In this document: positions 253-17,040 of the stretch, in pieces
How the letters are laid out: the number at the start of each line of letters is the position of its first letter
How positions within the stretch are numbered: position 1 is the first letter of the stretch
Assembly (NCBI RefSeq): GCF_021398735.1
Contig: NZ_CP090350.1
Span: 124,001-188,000, forward strand
Length of the DNA stretch: 64,000 nucleotides
Reading direction: 5' to 3'
Origin: Methylobacterium oryzae
Lineage (GTDB): Bacteria > Pseudomonadota > Alphaproteobacteria > Rhizobiales > Beijerinckiaceae
Notes under the pieces: model-generated
What the model saw: the letters and a program-made list of their open reading frames with translations, nothing else
The model's database searches: none
Told to the model about the DNA's origin: nothing
Position numbers and translations under genes: made by a program

Positions 253-462
253 TCAGCCAGCCTTCAGGTTGGCGGCGCTCTCCTTGCCGCTGCGGCGGTC
301 CGCCTCGACGTCATAGGAGATCTTCTGACCCTCGTTGAGGGAGCGAAGGCCCGCACGCTCGACGGCCGAGATGTGAACGAACACGTCCTTGCCGCCATCG
401 TCGGGCTGGATGAAACCGTAGCCCTTGGTCTCGTTGAACCACTTCACGGTGCCTGTAGCCAT
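253..462 (-). CDS. cspA: CspA-family cold-shock protein
   Basis: A 69-aa single cold-shock domain, the usual length. The first RNA-binding motif appears as [15 protein letters not shown] (RNP1, about residues 4-18) and the second as DVFVHISAV (RNP2, about 26-34). The C-terminus ([17 protein letters not shown]) is typical of alphaproteobacterial CspA. Proteins of this family bind single-stranded RNA or DNA and act as cytoplasmic RNA chaperones. The ATG at 460-462 gives the canonical [10 protein letters not shown] start; the longer in-frame extension upstream is not family-like and probably corresponds to the long 5' leader cspA genes often carry. Monocistronic. Confidence 0.95.
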
Positions 463-2534: not shown

Positions 2535-3217
2535 GGCAATTCCCCAGCGAGGTAGGCCCGCGCCTCGGACGTCCGGGGCGAGAACAGGATCTGTCGGGCG
2601 GGACCATGCTCGACGGCGCGGCCCGAGGCCAGCACGATCACCGCGTCGGCGAGGCGCGCCACCTGCCCGAGATTGTGTGAGACGAGCACGACCGTGGTGC
2701 CCGCCCGCGCCATCGCGGACACCAATCCCTCGACGATCTCGGTCGAGGCCGGGTCGAGGTTCGCGGTCGGCTCGTCGAGGAGGAGCAGGTCGGGGCCGAC
2801 CGCCCAGGCACGGGCCAGCGCCAGCCGCTGCTGCTCGCCGCCGGAGAGCCGCGTCGCGGGATCGCGGGCGCGCTCGGAGAGGCGGACGCGGGCGAGCGCC
2901 TCCTCCACCCGCGCGGCCCGCGCAGGACGGGGCAGGTCTCCGAGAGCCAGCGCGACGTTCGCGGCCGCGGTCGCGCGGATCAGCGCCGGCCGCTGGAACA
3001 CGAAGGCCCGCCGGTGCGGGCCGACCTGCACCGTGCCGCCGTCGGGCCGCAGGAGCCCGTCGACGACCCTCAGGGTGACGCTCTTGCCCGCCCCGTTCGG
3101 GCCGATGACGGCCGTGACGCTGCCCGTAGCGACCTCCAGGCAGAGACGGTCGAGCACCGTCCGACCGTCGAGGACCAGGGTCACGTCCTCGAGGCGGATG
3201 GCCGGTGTCGCGCTCAT
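2507..3217 (-). CDS. tupC: tungstate ABC transporter ATP-binding protein TupC
   Basis: A 236-aa ABC ATPase. It has Walker A GPNGAGKS (about residues 39-46), signature LSGGEQQR (about 124-131), Walker B LLLLDEP (about 144-150) and H-loop VSHN (about 179-182). It lacks the C-terminal TOBE domain seen in ModC, as is usual for TupC. It energises import of tungstate by the TupB channel at the inner membrane. The ATG at 3215-3217 overlaps the tupB stop by 4 bp (ATGA), and its 3' end overlaps tupA. The gene order B-C-A in the direction of transcription is a tight three-gene operon. Confidence 0.93.
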   Translation of the reverse strand: MSATPAIRLEDVTLVLDGRTVLDRLCLEVATGSVTAVIGPNGAGKSVTLRVVDGLLRPDGGTVQVGPHRRAFVFQRPALIRATAAANVALALGDLPRPARAARVEEALARVRLSERARDPATRLSGGEQQRLALARAWAVGPDLLLLDEPTANLDPASTEIVEGLVSAMARAGTTVVLVSHNLGQVARLADAVIVLASGRAVEHGPARQILFSPRTSEARAYLAGELPWTPFVAAS

Positions 3218-3909
3218 CCGTACACCCGCGCGGCGTGCCGGCGGAGCAGGGCCACGGCGACGTTCACCACCAGAACGAGGCCGATCAGCACGAGGCCGAG
3301 CGCCAGGGCGAGGCTGAGATCGCCCTTCTGGGTCTCCAGGGAGATCGCCGTCGTCATCGTGCGGGTATACCCGTCGATGTTCCCGCCGACGACGAGGACC
3401 GCGCCGATCTCCGAGATCGCCCGGCCGAACGCGGCGAGCGCGGCGGTCACGAGGGAGAAGCGCACGTCGTAGATCATCGCCGCGGCCTGACGCGGTGCGG
3501 AGAGCCCGAGGGAGCGCAGCTGCTCCCCGAGATGCACCCGGGCGTCGGCGACGACCTGCTGCGTCAGTGCGGCGACGAGCGGGGTCGCGAGCGTCGCCTG
3601 CGCGGCGATCATCGCGGCGGGGGTGAACAGCAGGCCGAGCGGTCCGAGCGGACCGGAGCGGGACAGGACGAGGTAGAGCGCGAGGCCGACGAGCACCGGC
3701 GGCAGCCCCATGAAGGCGTTGAGCAGGCCGACCGCGGCGCCGCGTCCGGGGAAGCGGGCGACGGCCAGGAACGCACCCAGGGGTATGCCGAGCACGAGAC
3801 CGATGCCGACGGCGGTGAGGCTGACACGCAGCGACAGCCACGCGATCGCCAGCACGTCCCGATCCAGGCTGAACAGGCGGGAGAGGATGTCCTGGAGCGT
3901 CTGCATCAT
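3214..3909 (-). CDS. tupB: tungstate ABC transporter permease TupB
   Basis: A 231-aa inner-membrane permease with about five to six hydrophobic helices. The cytoplasmic EAA-like loop is visible around EQLRSLGLSAPRQAAAMIYD (residues about 128-147), which contacts the ATPase. The segment GRAISEIGAVLVVGGNIDG is characteristic of TupB/ModB permeases. First gene of the tupBCA operon; the start ATG is near 3909, and an MMQ double methionine leaves a one-codon ambiguity. It is divergent from the MoeA-like gene with a 158-bp intergenic region. Confidence 0.92.
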   Translation of the reverse strand: MMQTLQDILSRLFSLDRDVLAIAWLSLRVSLTAVGIGLVLGIPLGAFLAVARFPGRGAAVGLLNAFMGLPPVLVGLALYLVLSRSGPLGPLGLLFTPAAMIAAQATLATPLVAALTQQVVADARVHLGEQLRSLGLSAPRQAAAMIYDVRFSLVTAALAAFGRAISEIGAVLVVGGNIDGYTRTMTTAISLETQKGDLSLALALGLVLIGLVLVVNVAVALLRRHAARVYG

Positions 3910-4067
3910 GCCCCCGGGCCGGTCCTCGGGAATCGGACGAGGCGGATGGCGAGATCAGCCGTCGAGGCCGACCTCGTGACGCAGGTTCGGCGGAATGGAC
4001 CTGTCATGCCTGTCAGGGGAGCGCGTGCGGATAGGCGGCGAGCATATCGCCCGGGGCGACCATTGTC
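3910..4067. promoter_or_regulatory. divergent promoter region between tupBCA and the MoeA-like genes
   Basis: A 158-bp intergenic stretch that must hold promoters for both directions. A direct repeat CCTGTCA occurs at 4000-4006 and 4009-4015 (CCTGTCATGCCTGTCAGG), spaced 9 bp centre to centre, a possible regulator site. The Mo-box-like palindrome seen near mobB and the avidin-like gene was not found here. Confidence 0.3.
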
Positions 4068-5225
4068 GTGTCGGCGGGTCGGCCGCCGCGCCGGCCCTTG
4101 ATCATCGAACCCGGATGGCGCATCGCCGCCACGATGATCCGGAATGCGTCCTCGGCGCTGATCCCGCTTCGGGAGGCGGCGATCCTGCTCAGCGGCGCGG
4201 CGGCTCCCGTCGAACCCGCGACCGTCCCGCTCGCAGCGGCGCTCGGACGCGTCGCCGCGCGAGCGGTCGTCGCGCACGCTGCCGTGCCCACGGGCCCGAC
4301 GGCGATGCGGGACGGCTTCGCGGTCGCGGCCGCCGCGGTGGGCGGCGCGTCGGCCTACGCGCCGATCTTCCCGGCGCGACCGCCACCCTGGGTCGAGGCG
4401 GGACAGCCGCTGCCGTCGGGCACCGATGCCGTCCTGCCCCCGGAGGGATTCGCGGACGGCATGGTCGTCGCGGACATCGCCCCGCGGGAGGGCGTGCGCG
4501 GAGCGGGGGAGGACGTCGCCGCCAACGCGCGGCTGATCGAGGCCGGCACCCGGATCGAGCCCCTTCACCTGCTCGTCCTGGAGGCGGCCGGCCTGGAGGC
4601 GGTCGACGTCCGTCAGCCGCGCTTGCGCGTCGTCACCGCCGGGACGTCCAGCCTCGATACCGTGTCGCCCCTGCTCGGGCGTCTGATCGCGCGGGCGGGC
4701 GGGGCGACCGAGGCGGTTCGCGCCCGGGGGGGCGAGGAGATCGCCGAGGCGATCCGCGGCGGCACGGCGGACGCGGTGCTGGTGGTCGGGGGCAGCGGTT
4801 TCGGCCGCTCGGACCACAGCGCGGCGGCCCTCGCCCGCGCCGGAGACGTCCGCGCGCACGGCATCGCCCTGCGGCCCGGGGAGACCACCGCGGTCGGCTC
4901 CGCGGCCGGCAGGCCGGTCCTCCTGGTGCCCGGGCCTCCCGAGGCGGCGCTCGCCGCGTTCCTGGCCCTCGGCCGTCCGCTCATCGCGCGGCTCGCCGGC
5001 GCGCGGGAGCGCTCGCCGCGGCGGCACGTCCTCCTCCGGAAGATCGTCTCGTCGATCGGTCTGTCCGAGGTCGTCTTCGTCCGGAGCGGGTCGGACGGCG
5101 TGGAGCCGCTGGGCGGAGCCGGCCTTCCGCTCGGTCGGTTGGTGCAGGCGGACGGCATCGTCGTGGTCGAGCCGGAGAGCGAAGGCTTCCGGGCCGGCGA
5201 GGAGGTAGAGGTTTGGGCCCTGTGA
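4068..5225 (+). CDS. divergent MoeA-like molybdopterin-binding protein
   Basis: A 385-aa MoeA paralogue. Recognisable MoeA landmarks are TAMRDGFAV (about residues 78-86, the counterpart of SAVDGYAV), LPSGTDAVLPPEGF (GADAVV region), GEDVAANARLIEAGTRI and RPVLLVPGPPEAALA. The TG(D/N)EL motif and following YDSN segment of catalytic MoeA are replaced by TAGTSSLDTVSPLLG, and GGVSxGxxD reads GGSGFGRSD. Family members insert Mo or W into adenylylated molybdopterin; this copy may have lost catalysis or act as a partner or chaperone (inference). The GTG start at 4068 is assumed; an ATG at 4134 is possible. Its TGA overlaps the next gene's GTG. Confidence 0.8.
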   Translation: MSAGRPPRRPLIIEPGWRIAATMIRNASSALIPLREAAILLSGAAAPVEPATVPLAAALGRVAARAVVAHAAVPTGPTAMRDGFAVAAAAVGGASAYAPIFPARPPPWVEAGQPLPSGTDAVLPPEGFADGMVVADIAPREGVRGAGEDVAANARLIEAGTRIEPLHLLVLEAAGLEAVDVRQPRLRVVTAGTSSLDTVSPLLGRLIARAGGATEAVRARGGEEIAEAIRGGTADAVLVVGGSGFGRSDHSAAALARAGDVRAHGIALRPGETTAVGSAAGRPVLLVPGPPEAALAAFLALGRPLIARLAGARERSPRRHVLLRKIVSSIGLSEVVFVRSGSDGVEPLGGAGLPLGRLVQADGIVVVEPESEGFRAGEEVEVWAL

Positions 5226-7201
5226 GCGCCGACGCGGACCGTGACGGGGCGGCGGATTTCGTCGCGCGCCTCGCCGCGGCCTCGAGCCAGGAGCAGTTTC
5301 TCCGGGTGATGAGCCGGGACGACGCGCTCGCGCGGTTCCGGGCGGCGGTCCCGCACGCGCGCCTGCCGTCCGAGACGGTGTCGTTGGACGACGCGCTCGG
5401 GCGCGTTCTGGCCCGCGACGTCGCCTCGCCCATGGACGTCCCGCCCTTCGACCGGTCCCTGGTCGACGGTTTCGCCCTGCGCGCGACCGACACGGAAGGC
5501 GCCGGGCCGGCGAGCCCGCGGCGTCTCACGCTGAACCGCGAGATCCTCGCCTGCGGCGTCGCGCCGACCGTCGTCGTCCAGCCGGGTACGGCGACGCCGA
5601 TCGCCACCGGCGGCGTGATCCCCCGCGGCGCCGACGCGGTGGTGATGGTCGAGCACACGGAGTTCGACGCCCGGAGCCTTACCGTCGATGTCCTGACCGC
5701 GGTGCGGCCGGCGCAGTTCGTGGGCTATGCCGGGGCCGACATGGCCCGCGGCGAGACGGTGCTGCGCGCGGGAACGCGGATCACCGCCCGCGAGATCGGC
5801 ATGCTGGCGGCGTGCGGCCTGGCGGCCGTCGACGTCACAGGACGCCCGCGGGTCGCAATCCTGTCCACGGGGGACGAGCTGGTCGCACCGGGCGAGCCCC
5901 TGCCCGAGGGCGCGATCTACGATTCGAACGGCGCGATCATCGCGGCCGCGGTGACCGAGAACGGCGGGGAGCCGGTCCGGCTCGGGATCGTGCGCGACGA
6001 GGCTTCCGTCCTCGAGGCCGCCCTCCGGTCCGCCCTCCGGGACAGCGACCTCGTCGTGCTCTCGGGCGGCACGTCCAAAGGCGCCGGCGACGTGTCGCAC
6101 CGGGTGCTGTCCCGCCTCGGCGAGCCGGGAATCCTGTTCCACGGCGTGGCCCTGAAGCCCGGGAAGCCGCTCTGCGTGGCGGTGGCGCAGGGAAAGCCGG
6201 TCATCGTCCTGCCGGGGTTCCCCACCTCCGCGATGTTCACCTTCCACGACTTCGTCGTGCCGTACGTGCGGGCGCTCGCCGGGTTGCCGCCGCGCGAGGA
6301 CGAGACGATCGCGGCGCAAGTGTCCCAGCGGGTGCCCTCCGAACTCGGCCGCACCGAGTTCGTGATGACCTCCCTCGCCCACGGTCGCGAGGGGACGATC
6401 GCCCTGCCGCTGCCGAAGGGCTCGGGTTCGGTCACCGCCTTCTCGCAGGCGGACGGCTTCTTCGCGGTTCCGGCCGCGCGCGCCGGCGTCGAGGCGGGGG
6501 AGGGCGTCGCCGTGGTCCGCCTGGGCGCCGGCGTGCGGGCGCCGGACCTGACGATCGTCGGCAGCCACTGCATCGGCCTGGACCGGGTGGTCGGCCTGCT
6601 CGGCGAGCGAGGGTACCGCGCCCGCACCATCTGGGTCGGGTCGGCCGGCGGCCTCGCCGCCCTGCGGCGCGGCGAGTGCGATGTCGCCGCCATGCACCTC
6701 TTCGATCCCGAGACGGGCCGGTACAATGCCCCGTTCCTCACCGAGGGCCTGTCCCTCGCGCCCGGGTGGTGCCGCCTCCAGGGCGTCGTGTTCCGCCGCG
6801 GCGACGCCCGGTTCGAAGGGCGCGACGCCGCGGACGCGGTCGCCGCGGCGCTCGCCGACCCCGACGCCGTGATGGTCAACCGCAACGCCGGATCGGGCAC
6901 GCGCCTGCTCGTGGACGGGCTGCTGAACGGTGCCCGGCCGGCGGGGTTCTGGAACCAGCCGCGCTCGCACAACGCCGTCGCCGCGGCGGTCTCGCAGGGC
7001 AGGGCGGACTGGGGCGTGGCCATCGCGAGCGTCGCGGATGCCTACGGGCTGGGCTTCCGCCCGCTGACGGAGGAGGCCTACGACCTCGCGTATCGCGCGG
7101 ACGCGCGGGAGATGCCGGCGCTCGCGGCCTTCCTGAGCCTGCTGGGCGAGCCCGAGACGGCCGCCGCGCTGCGCGCTCTGGGCTTCACGCCCGCCGCGTG
7201 A
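5222..7201 (+). CDS. MoeA fused to a periplasmic-binding-protein-like (LysR-substrate-type) domain
   Basis: A 659-aa two-part protein. Residues about 28-435 are a canonical MoeA: DRSLVDGFALRA, GGVIPRGADAVVMVEH, STGDELVAPGE with IYDSN, LSGGTSKGAGD, and GVALKPGKPLC. From about residue 440 (DLTIVGSHCIGLDRVVGLL) to the end lies a PBP-like domain with RNAGSGTRLLVD and ADWGVAIASVADAYGLGF, resembling substrate-binding proteins that sense oxyanions or cofactors. MoeA-PBP fusions are known in archaea and some bacteria; their exact role is unclear. It starts with GTG in a GTGA overlap after a GAGGTAGAG ribosome site, so it is coupled to the preceding MoeA-like gene. Likely role: insertion of tungsten or molybdenum into the pterin for formate dehydrogenase (inference). 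Confidence 0.9.
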   Translation: MSADADRDGAADFVARLAAASSQEQFLRVMSRDDALARFRAAVPHARLPSETVSLDDALGRVLARDVASPMDVPPFDRSLVDGFALRATDTEGAGPASPRRLTLNREILACGVAPTVVVQPGTATPIATGGVIPRGADAVVMVEHTEFDARSLTVDVLTAVRPAQFVGYAGADMARGETVLRAGTRITAREIGMLAACGLAAVDVTGRPRVAILSTGDELVAPGEPLPEGAIYDSNGAIIAAAVTENGGEPVRLGIVRDEASVLEAALRSALRDSDLVVLSGGTSKGAGDVSHRVLSRLGEPGILFHGVALKPGKPLCVAVAQGKPVIVLPGFPTSAMFTFHDFVVPYVRALAGLPPREDETIAAQVSQRVPSELGRTEFVMTSLAHGREGTIALPLPKGSGSVTAFSQADGFFAVPAARAGVEAGEGVAVVRLGAGVRAPDLTIVGSHCIGLDRVVGLLGERGYRARTIWVGSAGGLAALRRGECDVAAMHLFDPETGRYNAPFLTEGLSLAPGWCRLQGVVFRRGDARFEGRDAADAVAAALADPDAVMVNRNAGSGTRLLVDGLLNGARPAGFWNQPRSHNAVAAAVSQGRADWGVAIASVADAYGLGFRPLTEEAYDLAYRADAREMPALAAFLSLLGEPETAAALRALGFTPAA

Positions 7202-7269
7202 GCCGCGTGACGTGCGCACCGTTGGCCGGCCTCGACGGAACGGGACGGACGATCCTGTCGCCCGCCGGG

Positions 7270-7695
7270 ATGATCGACGCGACCGTTTCGCGTAGGGACG
7301 CCTGCGAGGCGCTGGGGCCTCCGGCGAAGCGGCGGTGTGCGTTGGGCGAGGACACGAGCATCAGTTTGCGGATCGAGCTGGGCTCGGACACCCTGCTGGG
7401 ACCGGGCAAGGCCGCCCTCTTGAGCGGCATCCGCGACACCGGCTCCATCGCCGCCGCGGGGCGCCGGATGGGCATGAGCTACAAGCGAGCCTGGTACCTC
7501 ATCGACACGTTGAACAAGGCGTTCCAGGAGCCGCTCGTCTCCGCGAGCAAGGGCGGCCGCCGGGGCGGCGGGGCGGTCCTGACCAGCACGGGCGACGCCA
7601 TCCTCGACAGCTACCTGCGCATGGAGCGGCTCGCCTCGGAGGCCGTGGCGGGCGAACTCGACCTTCTCGCCTCGCTGATGAAGGCCGATTCGTAG
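7270..7695 (+). CDS. ModE-type winged-helix regulator lacking a molybdate-binding domain
   Basis: A ModE/LysR-like winged-helix DNA-binding domain with nothing after it. Family landmarks are SISLRIELGSDTLLGPGKAALL, DTGSIAAAGRRMGMSYKRAWYLID (the helix-turn-helix) and a glycine-rich wing SKGGRRGGGAVLT. Full ModE adds MOP/TOBE domains that bind molybdate; here the chain ends at about 141 aa, so any metal sensing must involve another protein or this domain alone. Start is uncertain: GTG at 7198 would overlap the previous stop (GTGA), ATG is at 7270, and TTG at 7342 would best match short homologues. It probably regulates tup, moeA and fdh genes (inference from context and the Mo-box-like repeats). 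Confidence 0.82.
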   Translation: MIDATVSRRDACEALGPPAKRRCALGEDTSISLRIELGSDTLLGPGKAALLSGIRDTGSIAAAGRRMGMSYKRAWYLIDTLNKAFQEPLVSASKGGRRGGGAVLTSTGDAILDSYLRMERLASEAVAGELDLLASLMKADS

Positions 7696-7770
7696 GAGCG
7701 AGGCCGCGCAGAGGTGGGCCTCCGTGGGAAGCGGTCTCTCGACGGTCGGGCGTCGGCTTCGGTCTGTGCA

Positions 7771-7900
7771 GCCCGCTGCGTCATCGCGAGCGCAGCGAAG
7801 CGACCCAGGGCCGCGTGATATCTGTCAGCGTCGCGCCGACTGGATTGCTCCGCTCCGCTCGCAAGGACGGCACCGGGCTGATCGACCGGAAACAGCATCA
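7771..7900. repeat. 130-bp dispersed palindromic repeat, tandem copy 1
   Basis: The unit begins GCCCGCTGCGTCATCGCGAG and is repeated almost exactly 130 bp later. Its two ends form a long imperfect inverted repeat: GCGAGCGCAGCGAAGC near 7787-7802 pairs with GCTCCGCTCGCAAG near 7848-7864. Preceding bases GCTTCGGTC also match the copy at 55.0 kb. It has no coding potential. Such hairpin-forming repeats are frequent between genes in alphaproteobacteria. With copy 2 it fills the 397-bp gap 7696-8092. Confidence 0.85.
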
Positions 7901-8030
7901 GCCCGCTGCGTCATCGCGAGCGCAGCGAAGCGACCCAGGGCCGCGCGACATCTGCCGGCGTCGCGCCGACTGGATTGCTTCGCTCCGCTCGCAAGGACGG
8001 CACCGGGCTGATCAATTGGAAACAGGATCA
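7901..8030. repeat. 130-bp dispersed palindromic repeat, tandem copy 2
   Basis: Second direct copy of the unit at 7771-7900 with only a few substitutions (for example CGTGATATCTGTCAGC becomes CGCGACATCTGCCGGC). The terminal inverted repeat GCGAGCGCAGCGAAGC / GCTTCGCTCCGCTCGC is more perfect here than in copy 1. A third, more diverged copy lies at 55020-55166 in the same orientation. Confidence 0.85.
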
Positions 8031-8051
8031 GCCCGATGTCCGCCGCCAGGG

Positions 8052-8081
8052 TCCGGCGGCACGCCTGGGCGCGCCGCCGGA
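8052..8081 (-). terminator. hairpin downstream of the fdh operon
   Basis: TCCGGCGGC at 8052-8060 and GCCGCCGGA at 8073-8081 form a perfect 9-bp stem with a 12-nt loop, 12 bp beyond the stop of the formate dehydrogenase alpha gene. No long T-run follows, so it may stop transcription only partly or protect the 3' end of the mRNA. Confidence 0.5.
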
Positions 8082-8092
8082 GATCACGCCGC

Positions 8093-11062
8093 CTACTCGG
8101 CGGCCATGGCCGTGTGGACGGCGGAGGCCCGGGCCGCGCAGAACTTGAACTCCGGGATCTTGCCCATCGGGTCGAGCGCCGGGTTCGTCAGCAGGTTGGC
8201 CGCGGCCTCGGCGTAGCAGAACGGCATGAAGATCATGCCGACCGGCACGTCGCGGTCGGAGCGCACCTTCAGGTGGACCGCGCCGCGGCGCGTCTCCAGC
8301 TTCATCGTGTCGCCGGGCTCCAGCCCGAGCCGGTAGAGCTCCTTCGGGGCCATGAAGGCGACCGCCTCGGGCTCCAGCGCGTCGAGGACGCCGGCGCGCC
8401 GGGTCATCGATCCGGTGTGCCAGTGCTCGAGCACGCGGCCGGTCGACAAGACCATCGGGTAGTCCTCGTCCGGCAGCTCGTCCGGGGGCACCACGGCGGC
8501 CGGGACGATCTTCGCGCGCCCGCTCTCGGTGGGGAAGCCGGCGTAGAAGATGATCTCGTTGCCGGGCTGGTCCGGCGCGTCGACCGGGTAGGTCACGGCG
8601 CCCTCGCGCTCCAGGCGCTCCCAGGTGATGTTGTTGAACGACGGCATCACCATGGCCATCTCGCGGAAGATGTCGGCCGGGCCGCCGTAGTTCCAGGGCA
8701 GGCCGAGGCGCTTCCCCAGTTCCTGGATGATCCACCAATCCTGCCGCGCGTCGCCCGGCGGGGACACCACCGGCTGCGAGATCTGCACGCGACGGTCGGT
8801 GTTGGTGAAGGTGCCCGCCTTCTCGGCGAAGGCGGAGGCCGGCAGCACCACGTCGGCGTGGAAGGCGGTCTCCGTCAGGAACAGGTCCTGCACGACGAGG
8901 TGGTCGAGCATCGCCAGGGCGTGCCGGGCGTGGTTCAGGTCCGGGTCGGACATCGCGGGGTTCTCGCCCTCGACGAACATGCCCTTGATCTCGCCGGCGT
9001 GGATCGCCCGCATGATCTCGACGACGGTGAGGCCCTTCTGCGGGTCGAGCTTCTGACCCCAGAACTCCTCGAACATCTCCCGCACCGCGGCCTTCTCGAC
9101 CGACTGGTAGTCCGGGTAGACCATCGGGATCAGGCCGGCATCGGACGCGCCCTGGACGTTGTTCTGGCCGCGCAGCGGATGCAGGCCGGTGCCGGGGCGC
9201 CCGATCTGCCCCGTGACGAGGGCGAGCGCGATCAGGCAGCGCGAGTTGTCCGTGCCGTGGACGTGCTGGCTGATGCCCATGCCCCAGAAGATGATCGAGG
9301 ACTTGGCCCGGGCGTAGAGCCGGGCGACCTCGCGCAGGGTCTCCGCGTCGATGCCGCAGACCGAGGCCATCTTCTCCGGCGTGAACTCGACGATCTTCTC
9401 CTTGAGCGCCTCGAAGTTCTCGGTGTAGCCGGCGATGTACTGCTCGTCGTAGAGCCGCTCCTCGATGATCACGTTGAGCATCGCGTTGAGCATCGCGACG
9501 TCCGAGCCGGGCTTGAACGCGAGGTGCTTGTAGGCGTGCCGCGACAGCACCTGCCGGCGCGGGTCCATGACGATCAGCTTGGCGCCGCGCTGCTTCACGG
9601 CGTTCTTGAGGAAGGTCGCCGCCACCGGGTGGTTCACGGTCGGGTTGGCGCCGATCACGATGATGACCTCGGCGTCGAGCGCCGCCGAGAACGGCGCCGA
9701 CACGGCGCCCGAGTTCAGGCCCTCCATGAGGGCGGCGACCGACGAGGCGTGGCACAGCCGGGTGCAGTGGTCGACGTTGTTCGAGCCGAACCCGAGCCGC
9801 ACCAGCTTCTGGAAGAGGTAGGCCTCCTCGTTCGAGCCCTTCGCGGAGCCGAAGCCGGCGAGCGCCTTGCGGCCATGGGTGTCGCGGACCGTCCTGAGGC
9901 CGCCGGCGGCGCGGTCGAGCGCCTCCTCCCAGGTCGCCTCGCGGAAGTGCGTCCACGGGTTGGCCGGGTCGACCTGGTCGTTGGCGTCCTTCGGGACGTT
10001 GTCCAGGCGGATCAGCGGCGCCGTCAGGCGGTGGGGGTGGTGGACGTAGTCGAAGCCGAAGCGGCCCTTCACGCAGAGCCGGTTGTGGTTGGCCGGGCCG
10101 TTCACGCCCTCGGCGTAGACGATCCTCTCGTCCTTCACCTTGTAGGAGACCTGGCAGCCGACGCCGCAATAGGGGCACAGCGAGGTCACCTCGCGGTCGG
10201 GATAGACCGTCCGGGTGTTGTGCTCGGCGTCGAGGTAGGCGGACGGCATCAGCGCGCCGGTCGGGCAGGCCTGGACGCACTCGCCGCAGGCCACGCAGGT
10301 CGATCCGCCCATCGGGTCGTCGAAGTCGAACACCACCTTCGCGTCGGCCGAGCGGTAGGCCATGCCGATCACGTCGTTGACCTGGACCTCGCGGCAGGCG
10401 CGGACGCAGAGGTTGCACTGGATGCAGGCGTCGAGATTGACGCTCATGGCCGGGTGGCTGAAGTCGCCGGTCCAGCGCTCGGCCGCGGGGAAGCGGCTCT
10501 CGGACACGTCGAGGAAGTCGGCCTGCACCCAGAAGTGCGATGTCGGGTCGTGCGAGGTCGCGCGCTCGGGCTGGTCGGCCACGAGCAGCTCGAGCACCAT
10601 GGCGCGGGCCTTGGTGGCGCGCTCGGTCGCGGACTTGACCTTCATGCCCACGGCCGGCGTGCGCTTGCACGAGGCGGCCAGCACGCGCTCGCCCTCGATC
10701 TCGACCATGCAGGCGCGGCAATTGCCGTCCGGGCGGTAGCCCGGCTCGGGCTTGTGGCAGAGGTGCGGGATGTGGGTGCCGAGGCGCTTGGCGACGGCCC
10801 AGATCGTCTCGCCGGGGGCGGCCTCGACCTGCTGGCCGTCGAATTCGAACGCGATGGTCGAGGGGGCGGTCGGCCGCTCCTTGAGATCGTGCAAGCCCGA
10901 CGGCTCCGGGGCCGCCTGGCCGCCCGCCTTCGCCCCTTCCGAGTAGGAGCCGCCGGCTCCCGGCTTCGGGCCCGGCGCGGGGCCGCCCGCATCCTGCAGC
11001 CCGTCGGCCCGGATCTCGGGCTTCTCGGTCTTGTCGCCGCGCTGTTCGGGGGCGTTGCTCAT
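8093..11062 (-). CDS. fdh1A: NAD-dependent formate dehydrogenase, alpha (catalytic) subunit, FDH1 type
   Basis: A 989-aa catalytic subunit oxidising formate to CO2 in the cytoplasm. N-terminal NuoG-like [2Fe-2S] domain: C102, C115, C118, C132. Two [4Fe-4S] sites: C213/C216/C219/C223 and C256/C259/C262/C266. The FDH cubane site is C296/C299/C303/C330 (LCPYCGVGC start). The active site is DHCTRLCHASS with the metal-ligating Cys at about 437 followed by His, so it is a cysteine, not selenocysteine, enzyme. Length and layout match the tungsten-containing FDH1 alpha subunit of Methylobacterium. Its residues 1-60 are a low-complexity Gly/Pro/Lys extension. It lies 55 bp after the beta-subunit gene. 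Confidence 0.96.
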   Translation of the reverse strand: MSNAPEQRGDKTEKPEIRADGLQDAGGPAPGPKPGAGGSYSEGAKAGGQAAPEPSGLHDLKERPTAPSTIAFEFDGQQVEAAPGETIWAVAKRLGTHIPHLCHKPEPGYRPDGNCRACMVEIEGERVLAASCKRTPAVGMKVKSATERATKARAMVLELLVADQPERATSHDPTSHFWVQADFLDVSESRFPAAERWTGDFSHPAMSVNLDACIQCNLCVRACREVQVNDVIGMAYRSADAKVVFDFDDPMGGSTCVACGECVQACPTGALMPSAYLDAEHNTRTVYPDREVTSLCPYCGVGCQVSYKVKDERIVYAEGVNGPANHNRLCVKGRFGFDYVHHPHRLTAPLIRLDNVPKDANDQVDPANPWTHFREATWEEALDRAAGGLRTVRDTHGRKALAGFGSAKGSNEEAYLFQKLVRLGFGSNNVDHCTRLCHASSVAALMEGLNSGAVSAPFSAALDAEVIIVIGANPTVNHPVAATFLKNAVKQRGAKLIVMDPRRQVLSRHAYKHLAFKPGSDVAMLNAMLNVIIEERLYDEQYIAGYTENFEALKEKIVEFTPEKMASVCGIDAETLREVARLYARAKSSIIFWGMGISQHVHGTDNSRCLIALALVTGQIGRPGTGLHPLRGQNNVQGASDAGLIPMVYPDYQSVEKAAVREMFEEFWGQKLDPQKGLTVVEIMRAIHAGEIKGMFVEGENPAMSDPDLNHARHALAMLDHLVVQDLFLTETAFHADVVLPASAFAEKAGTFTNTDRRVQISQPVVSPPGDARQDWWIIQELGKRLGLPWNYGGPADIFREMAMVMPSFNNITWERLEREGAVTYPVDAPDQPGNEIIFYAGFPTESGRAKIVPAAVVPPDELPDEDYPMVLSTGRVLEHWHTGSMTRRAGVLDALEPEAVAFMAPKELYRLGLEPGDTMKLETRRGAVHLKVRSDRDVPVGMIFMPFCYAEAAANLLTNPALDPMGKIPEFKFCAARASAVHTAMAAE

Positions 11063-11117
11063 GCGGCCGCTCCTGGCTCGGACATCGGGATAGAATTCGC
11101 CGGTACCATCGGTTGCC

Positions 11118-12836
11118 TCACTCGGCAGCCGCGGCGCGCGGGGCGGGGAACAGGTCCGGGAAGTACTTGATGACGCTGCTGAGCGGGTTCGAGGCGGCCT
11201 GGCCGAGGCCGCAGATCGAGGCGTCCCGCATGCACTGGGACAATTCGCCCAGGAGCTCGGTGTCCCAGACGCCCTGCTCCATCAGGATGCGGGCCTTCTG
11301 GGTCCCCGAACGGCAGGGGGTGCACTGCCCGCAGCTCTCGTCCTCGAAGAACTTCATCAGGTTCAACGCGGCGCCGCGCACATCGTCCCGGTCGGACAGG
11401 ATCACGACGGCGGCGGAGCCGATGAAGCAGCCGTACTTCTCCAGCGTCCCGAAATCGAGCGGGATGTCGTTCATCGACGCCGGCAGGATGCCGCCCGACG
11501 CGCCGCCCGGCAGGTAGGCCGCGAAGGTGTGGCCCTCCGCCATGCCGCCGCAATACTCGTCGATCAGTTCCTGGATGGTGAGGCCGGACGGGGCGAGCTT
11601 CACCCCCGGCTCCTTCACGCGCCCCGAGACCGAGTAGGAGCGCAGGCCGACGCGGTCGTTGCGGCCGTGGCTCTTCCACCAGTCGCCGCCCCGCTCGATC
11701 AGGTCGCGGACCCAGAACAGCGTCTCGATGTTGTTGATCAGCGTCGGACGGTTGAACAGGCCGACCTGGAACGGGAACGGCGGCTTGTGCCGCGGCAGCC
11801 CGCGCTTGCCTTCGAGGGACTCGATCAGCGAGGATTCCTCGCCGCAGATATAGGCGCCGGCGCCGCGGCGCAGGTCTATGCGCGGGCCGCCCGCGGGGAG
11901 CTTCGCGATCTCGCGCGTCAGGATCTCGCGGGAGATGGGATACTCGTCGCGCAGGTAGATGTAGACCTCCGGCGCCTCGACGACGTGGGCGCCGATCAGC
12001 ATGCCCTCGAGGAAGCGGTGCGGGTCGGTGTTGAGGTAGAGCTGGTCCTTGAAGGTGCCCGGCTCGCCCTCGTCCCCGTTGACCGCCATCAGCCGGGGCC
12101 CGGGCTCGCCGCGCACCGAGCGCCACTTGCGCCCCGTCGGGAAGCCCGCGCCGCCGAGGCCGCGCAGGCCGCCGTCGTCGAGCACCTTCAGGACGTCGTC
12201 GACCGGAAGGTCCCCGCTGCGGAGCCGGTCGAGGGTCGCGTACCCGCCGGCGGCCCGATAGGCCTCGTAGTCGACGTAGTCCGGGATATGGGCGTGCGTG
12301 TCGCCGGCCTCGACCGCGGCCCGCACGGAGGCGAGGTCGGCCTTGTGCAGGAAGTTGTGCCCGACCTCGACGGCGGGCGCGTGGTCGCACAGGCCGACGC
12401 AGGGCGCGCGCACGACGCGGACGGCGTCGGAGGCGAGTTCCCGCTGGAGCGTCTCCAGCAGCTCGTCGGCGCCGAACATCGCGCAGGTGATGCTGTCGCA
12501 GACCCGGACGGTCAGCCGCGGGATCGAGGCGTCACCCTCCTTCACGACGTCGAAATGCGCGTAGAAGGTCGCGGTCTCGAACACCTCGGCGAAGGCCAGG
12601 GCCATCTCGTCGGCGAGCGCCGCCAGGTGCTCGGCGCTGATCTGGCCGTAGGTGTCCTGGATCAGGTGCAGGTGCTCGATGAGCAGGTCGCGCTGGCGCG
12701 AGCGGGAGCCGAGAAGCTCCTCGATCTCGACCTTCGCCCGCGGCTCGACCTGGCGCCCCTTGGGGACGCTGCGCGCCTTGTTCCGCCCCCGGCCGGGATG
12801 CGAGAAAGTCCTGACTGTCCCCGGTGCCTCACTCAT
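11118..12836 (-). CDS. fdh1B: NAD-dependent formate dehydrogenase, beta subunit (NuoE-NuoF fusion)
   Basis: A 572-aa diaphorase subunit. Residues about 40-200 are NuoE-like with [2Fe-2S] ligands in VRVCDSITCAMFG and APCVGLCDHAP. Residues about 220-560 are NuoF-like: GLGGAGFPTGRKW (NADH site), NGDEGEPGTFKDQ (FMN site), GAGAYICGEESSLIESLEG, and a [4Fe-4S] site in ESCGQCTPCRSGT with a fourth Cys in ASICGLGQA. It passes electrons from the alpha subunit to NAD+. The fusion of NuoE and NuoF is characteristic of Methylobacterium FDH1. The start is ATG at 12834-12836; the longer open frame upstream shadows other sequence. Confidence 0.95.
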   Translation of the reverse strand: MSEAPGTVRTFSHPGRGRNKARSVPKGRQVEPRAKVEIEELLGSRSRQRDLLIEHLHLIQDTYGQISAEHLAALADEMALAFAEVFETATFYAHFDVVKEGDASIPRLTVRVCDSITCAMFGADELLETLQRELASDAVRVVRAPCVGLCDHAPAVEVGHNFLHKADLASVRAAVEAGDTHAHIPDYVDYEAYRAAGGYATLDRLRSGDLPVDDVLKVLDDGGLRGLGGAGFPTGRKWRSVRGEPGPRLMAVNGDEGEPGTFKDQLYLNTDPHRFLEGMLIGAHVVEAPEVYIYLRDEYPISREILTREIAKLPAGGPRIDLRRGAGAYICGEESSLIESLEGKRGLPRHKPPFPFQVGLFNRPTLINNIETLFWVRDLIERGGDWWKSHGRNDRVGLRSYSVSGRVKEPGVKLAPSGLTIQELIDEYCGGMAEGHTFAAYLPGGASGGILPASMNDIPLDFGTLEKYGCFIGSAAVVILSDRDDVRGAALNLMKFFEDESCGQCTPCRSGTQKARILMEQGVWDTELLGELSQCMRDASICGLGQAASNPLSSVIKYFPDLFPAPRAAAAE

Positions 12837-12898: not shown

Positions 12899-13213
12899 TT
12901 ACTGGCCGCCGAAGGCCCGGAGCGGCTGGCCGGCCTCGGACCGCGGCTTCATCGTGGCCGTGCCCGTCGCCTCGTCCAGGGACGTGACCCTGGGTCCGAC
13001 GACGGAGCGCAGCTCGGTCTCGAACGCGTCGAGGGCGTCGTTCAGGCGGTCCATCAGGGAGCCCGGCGCGTCTCCGGCCGGCGACGCGGCCGCCTGGGCG
13101 AGCGCGTCGCGGACCCGGCCGGCGAGCTCCTGCGTGAGCGGCGGCTTCGCGTCGGCGCAGTAGGCGTCCGTCACGATGGCGGCCCAGTCCGCCGCGGAGG
13201 ATGCGTCGCCCAT
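12899..13213 (-). CDS. small conserved protein, first cistron of the fdh operon
   Basis: A 104-aa soluble protein, predicted mostly helical (DWAAIVTDAYCADAKPPLTQE, LAGRVRDALAQAA, MDRLNDALDAFETELRSVV) with a flexible Ala/Gly-rich linker about residues 40-52. No metal-binding motif or signal peptide; one cysteine. It precedes the beta-subunit gene by 62 bp in the same direction, so it is probably cotranscribed with fdh1B-fdh1A. It has the position of the small delta/FdsD-type accessory subunits of other NAD-dependent formate dehydrogenases, but I do not see clear sequence identity with FdsD. A maturation or structural role is plausible but unproven. Confidence 0.7.
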   Translation of the reverse strand: MGDASSAADWAAIVTDAYCADAKPPLTQELAGRVRDALAQAAASPAGDAPGSLMDRLNDALDAFETELRSVVGPRVTSLDEATGTATMKPRSEAGQPLRAFGGQ

Positions 13214-13312
13214 GCTCAGGCCTGCGCGATCGAGGGACGGTTGAAGTCGTGCATGGCGTGCCCGTTCGGGTCCGTTGGCGTGGCGCTCGCTCGTGGCATA
13301 CCAAATGGCAGC

Positions 13313-13336
13313 CGTTATAGCGGAGGTGTTATATCG
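13313..13336. promoter_or_regulatory. Mo-box-like inverted repeat between the fdh operon and mobB
   Basis: CGTTATA at 13313-13319, ten bases, then TATATCG at 13330-13336, giving CGnTATA-N10-TATAnCG. The same architecture with the same spacing recurs at 15308-15331. It resembles the inverted TATA-containing boxes bound by ModE proteins, and a ModE-type regulator is encoded at 7270. It sits 100 bp from the fdh operon start and 127 bp from mobB, so it could act on either side. Confidence 0.55.
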
Positions 13337-13463
13337 TTTTTGAAGTCGTTTCAATTTGCGTGACGCCGGGGTCACGCGTCCCGGCGGCGCGGCCGACGCT
13401 TGCCCTGAGCCCTCGCGCGGGGCAGTGGGAACGGCACGAGAGGGGCTGTCAGCGGTGTCCGGC

Positions 13464-13982
13464 ATGCGCGTAATCGGACTCGCCGGGTGGAGCGGGGCCG
13501 GCAAGACCAGCCTGCTGGTCCGGGCCATCCCCCTGCTCGTCGCCCGCGGGGTGCGGGTGGCGACCATCAAGCACGCCCATCACGACTTCGACACGGACTG
13601 GCCTGGGAAGGATTCCTACGAGCACCGCAGGGCGGGCGCGAGCGAGGTTCTGATCTCGTCGGGCCGCCGCTGGGCCCAGGTCCACGAGCTGCGCGACGAG
13701 CAGGAGGCGAGCCTCGGCCAGCTCCTGCGGCGGATCAGCCCGTGCGACCTCGTCGTCGTGGAAGGGTACAAGCGGGAGCCAATCCCCAAGATCGAGGTCC
13801 ATCGCGCCGAGAACGGCCGCCCGCCCCTCCATCCGCTGGACACCACCATCGTGGGCATCGCGAGCGACGTCGCGTTTCCGGCCTCGGGCATTCCCGTCGT
13901 AGATCTGAACGACGCGGCGGCGGTGACGGGGCTGATGCTCGACGTGGCCGTTCCCTTCGAAGACGTCCTCGGGAGGCTCTAG
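13464..13982 (+). CDS. mobB: molybdopterin-guanine dinucleotide biosynthesis adaptor protein MobB
   Basis: A 172-aa P-loop GTPase. Walker A GWSGAGKTS (about residues 7-15) and the family motif HAHHDFDTDWPGKDSYEHRRAGA region (about 37-59) are clear, followed by LVVVEGYKREPIPKIEVHR, typical of MobB. MobB assists MobA in attaching GMP to molybdopterin to make the guanine dinucleotide cofactor used by formate dehydrogenases; mobA is not in this window. The ATG at 13464 gives a standard N-terminus (MRVIGLAGWSG); GTG at 13455 is an alternative. moeA begins 4 bp after its stop. Confidence 0.93.
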   Translation: MRVIGLAGWSGAGKTSLLVRAIPLLVARGVRVATIKHAHHDFDTDWPGKDSYEHRRAGASEVLISSGRRWAQVHELRDEQEASLGQLLRRISPCDLVVVEGYKREPIPKIEVHRAENGRPPLHPLDTTIVGIASDVAFPASGIPVVDLNDAAAVTGLMLDVAVPFEDVLGRL

Positions 13983-13986
13983 CCGG

Positions 13987-15243
13987 ATGGCCCAGCTCAG
14001 CGACGACTGCTTCGCGTTCGGCGGTCCTCTGATGACCATCGAGGACGCGCACGCGCTGTTCGGCGAGCGGCTCGCAGCGATCGTCGGCACCGAGGACGTT
14101 CCCGTCCCGGACGCCGACGGGCGCGTCCTGGCCGAGGATTGCGTCGCGCCCATCGACGTCCCGCCGTTCCCCAACTCGGCCGTCGACGGTTACGCGGTCC
14201 GTTTCGCGGACCTGCGCGCCTCCGATGCGACGATCCTGCCGGTCGGCGCGGTCGTCGCGGCCGGCGCCTCCCCCGAAGGCGTGTCGGTGGCGGGCTCGGC
14301 CGCCCGGATCTTCACCGGGGCCCCGATGCCGGCGGGGGCCGACACCGTCTTCATGCAGGAGGACGTCCAGGTCCTGCCCGACGGCCGGGTGTCCCTGCCG
14401 CTCGGGCTGAAGCGGGGCGCCAACAGCCGCGACGCCGGCGAGGACGCGGCGAAGGGCTCGACGATCATCGCGGCCGGCCGGCGTCTCCGGCCGCAGGACC
14501 TGGCCCTGGCGACCGCGGTCGGCCTGCGCACGCTGAAGGTCCGCCGCACCCTGCGGGTCGGCGTGTTCTCGACGGGCAACGAACTCGTCGAGCCCGGGTC
14601 GCCCCTGGGGCCGGGCGCGATCTACGACTCGAACCGCGTCCTGCTGCTCGCTCTTCTCCGGCGGATGGGCGTCGCGGCGCGCGACCTCGGCGTCATCCGC
14701 GACGACCCGGCGGCCCTCGCGGCCAGGCTCTCGGCGGCGGCCGCCGAGCACGACGTGATCCTGACTTCGGGCGGCGTGTCGACCGGCGACGAGGATCACG
14801 TGAAGACCGCCGTCGAGAGCATCGGGCGCCTCGTGTTCTGGCGGCTGGGGATCAAGCCGGGACGGCCGGTCGCGATGGGCATGATCGACGGCAAGCCGTT
14901 CCTGGGCCTGCCGGGCAACCCGGTGGCTGTCTACGTCACCCTGCTGTTCGTGGTGCGGCCGCTCCTCGCCCGGCTCGCCGGCGAGGCCTACGCGCCGTCG
15001 CGCGGATTCACCGTCAGGGCGGCCTTTCCCTATCGGAAGCGCGCGGGCCGCAGGGAGTTCGTCCGGGTCAGCCTCGCCCGGGACGCCGACGGCGCCTGGG
15101 AGGCCCGGAAGTTCCAGCGCGACGGCGCGGGCATGCTGTCATCGCTCACCGAATCCGACGGCCTCGTGGAGCTGGAGGATGACCGGACCGAGGTCGTGCC
15201 GGGCGACGCCGTGCGGTTCCACCCGCACGGGGCCCTCTGGTAG
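13987..15243 (+). CDS. moeA: molybdopterin molybdenumtransferase MoeA
   Basis: A 418-aa canonical MoeA, the third MoeA homologue in this locus. It inserts the metal into adenylylated molybdopterin. Motifs in order: FPNSAVDGYAVRF (about residues 59-71), FTGAPMPAGADTVFMQED (about 108-125), GEDAAKGSTI, STGNELVEPGSPL (about 196-208) with IYDSNR, TSGGVSTGDEDHV (about 260-272), GIKPGRPVAMG (about 291-301), LGLPGNPVAVYV. The N-terminus MAQLSDDCFAFGGPLMTIEDA is typical of alphaproteobacterial MoeA. It follows mobB by 4 bp and forms a two-gene operon. Confidence 0.95.
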   Translation: MAQLSDDCFAFGGPLMTIEDAHALFGERLAAIVGTEDVPVPDADGRVLAEDCVAPIDVPPFPNSAVDGYAVRFADLRASDATILPVGAVVAAGASPEGVSVAGSAARIFTGAPMPAGADTVFMQEDVQVLPDGRVSLPLGLKRGANSRDAGEDAAKGSTIIAAGRRLRPQDLALATAVGLRTLKVRRTLRVGVFSTGNELVEPGSPLGPGAIYDSNRVLLLALLRRMGVAARDLGVIRDDPAALAARLSAAAAEHDVILTSGGVSTGDEDHVKTAVESIGRLVFWRLGIKPGRPVAMGMIDGKPFLGLPGNPVAVYVTLLFVVRPLLARLAGEAYAPSRGFTVRAAFPYRKRAGRREFVRVSLARDADGAWEARKFQRDGAGMLSSLTESDGLVELEDDRTEVVPGDAVRFHPHGALW

Positions 15244-15307
15244 CGGGGCCGCGCTCAGGGCCTCACGAGACGCGGACCGCGCCCCAGCATTGCCGGGCTC
15301 GCGCATC

Positions 15308-15331
15308 CGTTATATCAAATCTGCTATATCG
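15308..15331 (+). promoter_or_regulatory. Mo-box-like inverted repeat upstream of the avidin-like gene
   Basis: CGTTATA at 15308-15314, ten bases, TATATCG at 15325-15331. Together with the preceding C, the 25-base arrangement CCGTTATA...TATATCG is shared with the site at 13313-13336, differing only in the centre. It ends 50 bp before the ATG at 15382 and 64 bp after moeA, so it most likely serves the downstream gene. Confidence 0.55.
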
Positions 15332-15381
15332 CTTGTGATGGGCCGTGCGAGCGGCCGCTCGATCGGCGGGCTTGAGCAACG

Positions 15382-15735
15382 ATGTTCGATGGTGTCTGGC
15401 GGAGCCAAGCCGGCGCGGAACTCCGCCTCCTCCAGATGGGCGAGGCGGTCTCCGGGACCTACACCGCCGCCGATCCCGGCTTCGCGCAGACGCATCGAAG
15501 CCGCATCCTCGTCGGCACGGCCGAGGGCGACATCATCGGCTTCGTGACCAGCACGTCGTCGCCCCAGGAGATCACGGCCTGGACCGGGCGCCTCGTCCGG
15601 ACCGACGAGAAGACGGCCGAGGCGATCCACGCGGTCTTCCACGCCGTCGAACGGTCCTCGCAGCCGAAGGCCGTGGCCGATCACGTCGCGCTCGAGACGA
15701 CCATCTTCTCGAAGGTCGAGAACGCCTGTTCGTGA
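15382..15735 (+). CDS. avidin/streptavidin-like beta-barrel protein
   Basis: A 117-aa protein without a signal peptide. Its spacing of hallmark residues fits the avidin family: FDGVWRSQAGAELRLLQ (strands 1-2), VSGTYTAAD (GTY...A), ILVGTAEGDIIGFVTST (G...GFxV), ITAWTGRLV (TTWSGQ position), AIHAVFHAV (TQWLL position) and TIFSKV (DTFTKV position) at the C-terminus. Of the streptavidin biotin contacts, Tyr43, Thr90 and Trp92 equivalents appear kept, while Asn23, Ser27, Trp79, Trp108, Trp120 and Asp128 equivalents appear changed. The fold assignment is by pattern only; biotin binding is doubtful and another small ligand is possible. It lies just after moeA behind a Mo-box-like repeat. Confidence 0.65.
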   Translation: MFDGVWRSQAGAELRLLQMGEAVSGTYTAADPGFAQTHRSRILVGTAEGDIIGFVTSTSSPQEITAWTGRLVRTDEKTAEAIHAVFHAVERSSQPKAVADHVALETTIFSKVENACS

Positions 15736-15828
15736 AGCCAGGGTCGCGTCCCTCCTCGATGGGGTCCCGAGGAACGGGGGCGACCGTGGCGCGAGGAGCG
15801 GTCGGCGCATGCGTGATCGGCGACGGCT

Positions 15829-17040
15829 CTAGATGAACGGCGCGTCGGCTTCGAGGCCCAGAAGGATGCGGCCGGTCGGCACGAGCAGCCGGTCCTGATA
15901 ATGCATGTGCTGGCAGGCCGCGTAGACATCGCGGAGCTGGCGCGCGAACGGCAGGTCTTCGAGGACGGCGGAACTGCCGGCCGCCTCGTACATGCTCGTG
16001 ACCACCTGCTTCCCGACATGGCCCGCGTACCAGCAGGCCCGCCGAAGCTTGGCCTGCCACGCGAGCGTTATCGGACGGCCGTTCTCGGCTTCCCACCAGA
16101 ATTCGGAGACCGTGTCCCGGGCGAAGGCGCGCGCGGCTTCGAGGCTCGTCTCGGCACGCGCGATCGCGACCTGGACATCCTCGCGAAGTCTCAGGGGCAC
16201 CTTGCCGCCATGCGGCGTCTTCGTCTGCGCGAGATCGATGAACGCGTCGATCGAGGCCCGGGCGATCCCGAGCGGAACACCGATGGCGGCGATCGCGGCC
16301 GCCGATGCCATGGGCAGCATGTAGAGGGGCCTTCTGTCGCGAGGCATCATGAGGCTCGCGCCGTCGATGGTCTGCGCGTTCGGCACCCAGATGTCGGTGC
16401 ACGCGACGTCGTGACTCCCGCTGGCCCGGAGCCCCCCGGCATTCCAGTTGCCGACGACCTCGACATCCTTCGAGGCGATGAAGACGCCGCGCAGCGACGG
16501 CCGCCCGTTCTCGTCGAGCTTCGGCCGCTCGCCCTCGATCTCCACACACATCAATGCGGACACGGAACTGTAGCGGCAGAAGCTCGCCCAGGACCAGCGT
16601 CCGTTGATCCGCCAGCCGGATCCATGGCGAACCGCTGTTCCCGTCGGCTGGCCGCTCCCGCTGCCCGCGAACTTCCTGCCGGCAGGGATGAGCGAACGCA
16701 TCACGTCCGCGTCGATCAGGTCGGCGAAGCGTGACGCGCCCCCGGACGAGATCGCGGCGCACCAGGCGACCGAACCGTCGAGTTCCGCCAGAGCTTCGAT
16801 CGCCGCCAGGACGCTCAGCGGATGCGCTTCAGGACCGCCCAGGCCCCGCGGAAGCCAGAGCTGCGCGAGACCGGCGTCGATGAGCGCCTCTGCGACCGGC
16901 TCCGGCAGGTCCGGGCCGACAGCGAGGGCCGACCGGTGCTCCGCGATGAGGGGCCGAAGCGCCGCGACGGTCGCGAGAAACGCCGCGTCCGGATCTCCGG
17001 CTCGCGCGGCAGGGCGGATCGAGGGGGCGACACCGTTCAT
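15829..17040 (-). CDS. acyl-CoA dehydrogenase-like flavoprotein (DszC/HsaA-type monooxygenase family)
   Basis: A 403-aa protein with the three-part acyl-CoA dehydrogenase layout: helical N-terminal domain (about residues 25-120), middle beta domain with SGSGQPTGTAVRHGSGWRINGRWSWAS (about 126-152), and a C-terminal helical domain ending in a YAACQHMHYQDR motif. The middle and C-terminal features resemble flavin-dependent monooxygenases such as DszC and HsaA rather than true acyl-CoA dehydrogenases, and no catalytic Glu of the latter is evident. It would then use reduced flavin from a separate reductase, which is not encoded next to it. Substrate unknown. A perfect 14-bp palindrome lies about 79 bp upstream. 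Confidence 0.8.
   Translation of the reverse strand: MNGVAPSIRPAARAGDPDAAFLATVAALRPLIAEHRSALAVGPDLPEPVAEALIDAGLAQLWLPRGLGGPEAHPLSVLAAIEALAELDGSVAWCAAISSGGASRFADLIDADVMRSLIPAGRKFAGSGSGQPTGTAVRHGSGWRINGRWSWASFCRYSSVSALMCVEIEGERPKLDENGRPSLRGVFIASKDVEVVGNWNAGGLRASGSHDVACTDIWVPNAQTIDGASLMMPRDRRPLYMLPMASAAAIAAIGVPLGIARASIDAFIDLAQTKTPHGGKVPLRLREDVQVAIARAETSLEAARAFARDTVSEFWWEAENGRPITLAWQAKLRRACWYAGHVGKQVVTSMYEAAGSSAVLEDLPFARQLRDVYAACQHMHYQDRLLVPTGRILLGLEADAPFI

Follow-up and report, generated by a model that had tools for sequence, protein, structure and literature searches.

A 2021 survey of bacterial avidins describes them as having no clear association with distinctive pathways, and it distinguishes one clade, the 'metavidins', in which non-conservative changes at biotin-binding residues are most numerous and which includes Methylobacterium among its genera (PMC8033661). 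This clade may be the one studied here. The same survey lists the avidin domains of fibropellins as avidin-like and non-biotin-binding (PMC8033661). On the metal side, moeA1, mobB, and fdhD are reported to be essential for tungsten loading of the formate dehydrogenase FDH1 in M. extorquens, where a moeA1-mobB-tupBCA cluster has been described (PMC13197769). In Rhodobacter capsulatus, the ModE-type regulators MopA and MopB repress their targets at Mo-boxes in the presence of molybdate (PMC6925177), and the published consensus for ModE of E. coli is ATCGNTATATA-N6-TATATANCGAT (PMC545781). Our literature search, partly limited by the term 'mode' matching ordinary words, found no link between avidins and molybdenum or tungsten. 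The main text of the 2021 survey does not contain 'molybd' (PMC8033661), in contrast to the molybdenum/tungsten association of the clade described below.

The window analysed here is the whole stretch of 64,000 nucleotides from Methylobacterium oryzae. The preliminary description had placed an avidin-like protein inside a molybdenum/tungsten cofactor locus, and such a locus is present: genes like tupA, tupB, and tupC, moeA paralogues, a one-domain modE, and FDH1-type genes occupy positions 1689-12836, and the whole is better called a tungsten/molybdenum locus. Its minus strand carries genes for a TupA-like binding protein (1689-2534; 203 bits with the TupA model, under the cut-off of 400), a TupC-like ABC ATPase (2507-3217; named from its position), and a TupB-like permease (3214-3909; 162 bits with the TupB model, under the cut-off of 320). 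On the plus strand there follow a divergent moeA paralogue (4068-5225), a moeA paralogue fused to a PBP-like domain (5222-7201), and, adjoining the latter, a gene for a one-domain ModE-like regulator of 141 aa (7270-7695; TIGR00637, 81.5-81.9 bits, E = 3.6e-23, under the curated cut-off of 98.5). The genes for the FDH1 alpha-type subunit (fdhA, 989 aa, 8093-11062) and beta-type subunit (fdhB, 572 aa, 11118-12836) lie on the minus strand, and upstream of fdhB is a conserved open reading frame of about 105 aa (12899-13216, minus strand), which was matched in all 30 fdhB loci examined (of 45 fdhB matches) and for which no Pfam or NCBIfam family was found. The plus-strand genes mobB (13464-13982; Pfam MobB and NCBIfam mobB matches, obtained with the longer frame that opens at 13356, the start being placed at 13464) and moeA (13987-15243; Pfam/NCBIfam match) precede the avidin-fold gene (15382-15735, plus strand). 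Judging from gene order and content, this moeA probably corresponds to moeA1 of M. extorquens, and the window shares matching moeA, mobB, tup-like, and FDH1-like genes with the MoeA1-MobB-FdhD path of that organism. The main text of the M. extorquens paper makes no mention of an avidin (PMC13197769). Near the start of the window, a short open reading frame (253-462, minus strand) has the look of a cold-shock protein by eye, and a weak match to the cspA thermoregulator (30.4 bits, gathering threshold 78) falls at the same place.

The 117-aa frame at 15382-15735 contains all six avidin-family motifs that the preliminary description had listed as landmarks, and its assignment to the family held under a profile search, with a score of 30.6 bits against Pfam Avidin PF01382 (curated cut-off 24 bits). 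The same model recovers 17 of 20 aligned relatives at E 0.01, ordinary avidins included. In the family search, this was the one avidin-family match of its own genome, and 14 control genomes gave none. The predicted structure consists of exactly eight strands and has avidins and streptavidins as its top structural matches, with two low-confidence loops at the pocket (pLDDT 58, residues 31-40, and pLDDT 53); a Methylorubrum member of the clade, modelled as a second case, likewise has eight strands. Comparison of eight close genomes in 28 pairs gave a median dN/dS of 0.20, indicating that the gene is under purifying selection. A chance open frame is ruled out by the HMM score, the predicted fold, and the dN/dS ratio. 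No Mop/TOBE domain was matched in the protein by Pfam or NCBIfam models at E values up to 1.

It had also been claimed that most biotin contact residues are substituted and that a signal peptide is missing, and both points stand. We aligned 18 clade members against five comparison avidins, namely the two ordinary-type avidins of the genus (G059 and G068), P0016, streptavidin (as the engineered chain 6s4q), and xenavidin; the alignment itself was computed, and it was read at the positions that we take to be biotin contacts. Ser27, Trp79, Trp108, and Trp120 are retained in 5/5 comparison avidins and lost in 18/18 clade members, with gaps in the alignment around Trp120. Asp128 is missing in 16 of the 18 and Asn23 is retained in only four, while Tyr43 and Trp92 are kept in every member. 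On this alignment, the avidin-fold protein is without its biotin site across the whole clade. Roughly half of bacterial avidins have a predicted signal peptide (PMC8033661). Here, the open frame in the M. oryzae genome spans only 119 codons, which leaves no leader peptide ahead of the protein; the protein begins directly at strand 1, and a simple hydrophobicity scale found no strongly hydrophobic run at its N terminus. The Methylobacterium protein thus shares with the streptavidin/avidin family (PF01382) the eight-stranded barrel, the GxW and GTY motifs, and the equivalents of Tyr43 and Trp92, and differs in being without the three biotin tryptophans, Ser27, and an export signal, and in having a metal-type control site and neighbours. 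It is like the avidin domains of fibropellins in its avidin-like fold, with biotin binding absent in those domains and the site lost here. Fibropellins are animal extracellular proteins, and we know of no metal link for their avidin domains.

The clade is narrowly distributed. PF01382 matches were found in 15 of 111 genomes of the genus and matches to a profile of the clade in 20, and setting aside G059 and G068, ordinary-type avidins with far lower scores, leaves 18 carriers of the variant. Among 298 sampled genomes of the host's family, from 43 genera, there were 4 matches, all in its own genus and one of them the ordinary-type G059. A species collection yielded 9 loci, exclusively from Methylobacterium/Methylorubrum, and a profile search of 5.8 billion proteins returned 16 matches, the named ones being from Methylobacterium or Methylorubrum and one, P0016, being an ordinary-type avidin. 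These counts rule out a widespread clade. The 18 variant sequences come together in a 23-row tree as a single group (support 99/96, branch length 2.11), whose deeper placement is unsure as long branches meet there. One carrier, G103, has a second, partial match to the variant (C1:6144494-6144604) about 33 kb from the main copy.

The preliminary description had left it to a survey of homologues whether the link to molybdenum genes recurs, and the homologues are not scattered: 16 of 18 adjoin recognisable Mo/W genes, the exceptions being G012, where the neighbours are a metal-free NAD-FDH and a LysR gene, and G092, which is cut by a contig end. Two settings account for most carriers. In 13 of 18, the gene lies at a tungsten-type FDH1 locus, after mobB-moeA in eight and beside fdh in the other five (G015, G018, G049, G054, and G056), where the state of mobB ranges from whole to absent; in G015, G054, and G049 (L169, L165, and L163), the avidin-fold gene has been kept while the adjoining mobB match is fragmented, strongly reduced, or absent. 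Four carriers have it in islands with a one-domain modE and/or an NAD-FDH of the metal-free kind (NCBIfam, 699.5 bits, cut-off 329): in G107, G044, and G040 it is beside both, with modAB and a moeA as well in the first two, and the fourth is the G012 island. The FDH1 gene fdhB was found in 16/18 carriers compared to 28/93 other genomes (Fisher p = 4e-6, uncorrected for kinship). Since FDH1 was not detected at our threshold in two carriers (G040 and G092), the avidin-fold protein cannot serve FDH1 only. Similarly, a moeA match is present in 101 of the 111 genomes of the genus and the avidin variant in 18, so the variant is unnecessary for cofactor assembly as such.

The metal link proved firmer than the preliminary description had supposed, and the strongest evidence for it is a feature absent from that description, a ModE-type box upstream of the gene. 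This 24-base box, CGTTATATCAAATCTGCTATATCG, lies at 15308-15331, 50 nt ahead of the ATG, and its spacing matches the E. coli ModE consensus. When the 28-mers of the window are compared with that consensus, the avidin site comes first with 14 of the 20 specified positions, a lead of one position over three others at 13/20, one of which is the site before mobB. This second box (13313-13336, a pattern match) is located between the fdh genes and mobB. With three mismatches or fewer, the window contains 6 sites where 0.97 are expected. In the whole genome of M. oryzae, the site before the avidin-fold gene is the sole exact 24-base match, and the two sites with one mismatch are before mobB and on C1 without an adjoining Mo gene. 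Among the 18 carriers, 17 have a copy of the box that deviates from the pattern at no more than one position and lies 45-60 nt ahead of the ATG, the copy in G092 being perfect; in the remaining carrier, G049, the nearest box has two mismatches and is 173 nt away. For the two ordinary avidins, the best upstream site had 6 mismatches in a scan that misplaced their start codons. A genome-wide scan of 13 of the 18 carriers (all except G015, G018, G049, G054, and G056) yielded 42 sites that deviate at one position or none. Of these, 27 fall no more than 8 kb from the gene, against an expectation of 0.1; the count is partly circular, since the same upstream regions had served to derive the pattern. 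When the pattern was reversed as a control, it produced 28 strand-hits in 14 genomes, versus 74 for the original. In the eight-genome clade, 21/24 box columns are invariant, compared to 68/114 among the remaining columns of the leader (one-sided p = 0.007). That the box is just a promoter element of mobB-moeA was rejected, as it is absent, like the avidin, from 22 of 30 moeA loci (the best 30 moeA matches, from matches in 101 genomes).

Other features of the leader are less clear. A promoter scan of 13150-15850 found no sigma-70 promoter or terminator pattern, so the promoter is unplaced; TTGCCG (15290-15295, plus strand), invariant in the eight genomes, is a possible -35 hexamer on the strength of its conservation alone. 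Between the box and the start codon there is an inverted repeat (15342-15367) with 13-nt arms that are 85% complementary. A Moco riboswitch before the gene was rejected, with no such Rfam match in positions 1-26000 of the window at E values up to 1.

Box sites in relatives point to a wider regulon. Of 12 stretches inspected, 11 were chosen for a box site, and in seven of these 11 the box adjoins Mo-type genes or an NAD-FDH cluster: at modA (L080, L083, and L085), at modABC/ADH and moeA (L084), at a one-domain modE (L080, L081, and L085, and with two mismatches L078 and L079), and at an orf125-LysR-NAD-FDH cluster (L078, L079, and L081). The sites in L082, L088, and L089 have no adjoining Mo gene, and no box site is present in L087, the stretch chosen for the second ModE-like gene. 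The NAD-FDH genes of such clusters match the metal-independent kind (L018:9894-11057, L078:4179-5366, L079:6017-7204, and L081:6295-7482), as if they were a Mo/W-sparing backup. Upstream ModE-type boxes were also seen at two genes for TonB-dependent receptors (L086:4334-6304 and L018:13855-16050), which are candidates for metal-chelate uptake, and in some relatives a Mop gene adjoins modA. The arrangement is the same as in the MopA/MopB regulon of R. capsulatus in its ModE-type regulators, its Mo-boxes, and the company of a transporter and a metal-free backup enzyme; it differs in that the backup there is an Fe-nitrogenase, and the accessible part of that report mentions no avidin (PMC6925177). 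In M. oryzae itself, a scan allowing up to two mismatches placed no box near modA (C1:2434925), and a search for an NAD-FDH, run with no positive control, came back negative, so that all signs of a wider regulon come from relatives. The avidin-fold gene is likely to belong to a Mo/W regulon, and we put this no higher because the M. oryzae modA is without a box and the consensus favours the avidin site by one position only. The nearby regulator gene at 7270-7695 is outscored by a second ModE-like gene of the same genome (88.3 bits, also under the TIGR00637 cut-off of 98.5), which makes the identity of the regulator uncertain.

The loss of the biotin site, the ModE-type site, and the mostly Mo/W neighbours suggest that the avidin fold was re-used in metal-cofactor supply. 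We favour, with somewhat more confidence than doubt, a cytoplasmic, non-biotin avidin-fold protein in a ModE-type Mo/W regulon whose barrel binds a small ligand of the Mo/W economy. A one-domain ModE, probably the product of 7270-7695, would act by binding the box 50 nt upstream of the start codon, linking expression of the gene to Mo/W status. Derepression under metal shortage appears slightly more probable than activation: where the gene shares an island with molybdate-uptake genes and a formate dehydrogenase of the metal-free kind, this company points to expression at low metal, while either activation or repression could account for the boxes at fdh and mobB. The barrel could then hold or guard a pterin cofactor or intermediate for the tungsten-insertion step of MoeA1-MobB. 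This is our leading guess for the ligand and a tentative one, and it is chemically plausible because avidin structures with 8-oxo purine nucleosides are on record (2a5b and 2a5c), to which pterins, as bicyclic rings, would be similar. The full reading, a ModE-controlled intracellular avidin that binds a pterin or a W/Mo cofactor as carrier or guard of a metal-cofactor intermediate, is possible at about the same tentative level.

A different ligand would be the oxyanion itself, with the barrel buffering or storing molybdate/tungstate, as the molbindin Mop does, through an Arg39-x-Arg41 loop before strand 4. Arg39 is present in 18/18 clade members and Arg41 in 17/18 (Lys in the remaining one), compared to 1/5 and 0/5 comparison avidins at the same columns, and the metal-type regulon and the Mop gene beside modA in some relatives would also fit; however, the placement of the arginines in the pocket is uncertain in this model (pLDDT 58 for residues 31-40), known oxyanion stores have other folds than avidin, and we know of no oxyanion-binding avidin. 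We consider such a store unlikely. It is equally doubtful that the protein binds another protein or a peptide, for example MoeA1, MobB, or FDH1, as an assembly or protective partner with its pocket partly filled. Avidin pockets do accept peptides, as the engineered streptavidins with Strep-tag peptides among the structural matches illustrate, and the C-terminal residues of bradavidin are intrinsic ligands (PMC3344845). Glu13 is invariant in 18/18 clade members and the gene follows mobB-moeA in eight genomes, but four carriers have it away from the FDH1 locus and, as noted above, two have no FDH1 at the threshold.

Residual binding of biotin would give the metal association another origin. Biotin sulfoxide reductase is a molybdoenzyme, so that if the protein weakly bound biotin or a derivative such as biotin sulfoxide, the Mo link would run through biotin salvage. 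The retained Tyr43 and Trp92, the Asn23 kept in 4/18, and the high affinity that rhizavidin reaches without a contribution from the neighbouring subunit (PMC8033661) are compatible with this proposal; yet three tryptophans and Ser27 are lost in every clade member, and changing two such tryptophans in chicken avidin virtually abolished binding (cited in PMC8033661), which leaves weak biotin binding with little probability. Finally, an ordinary divergent avidin that is a chance passenger in the cofactor locus, with a box that serves the neighbours and a founder effect in one genus, is highly improbable, since its confinement to one genus among the sampled genomes, the nearly identical locus in 8/18 carriers, and the one-mismatch box before the fdh operon in 5/14 genomes without the variant are set against two different contexts that have in common the box and nearly the same spacing between it and the start codon, box columns more conserved than the remaining leader, and a gene that is kept where the adjoining mobB is fragmentary, reduced, or missing.

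To an already known family, this analysis adds a metal-type control site, two genomic settings among metal genes, and a biotin site that is lost throughout one clade. Where the survey saw no clear pathway association for bacterial avidins (PMC8033661), this clade has one, with a ModE-type site, Mo/W neighbours in two settings, and its biotin contacts lost. The avidin-fold protein is a candidate for an extra part in the maturation of an aerobic tungsten enzyme that is being pursued for CO2 reduction (PMC13197769). If the proposed role in metal-cofactor supply is true, this would be the first avidin with a physiological role in that supply instead of in biotin binding.
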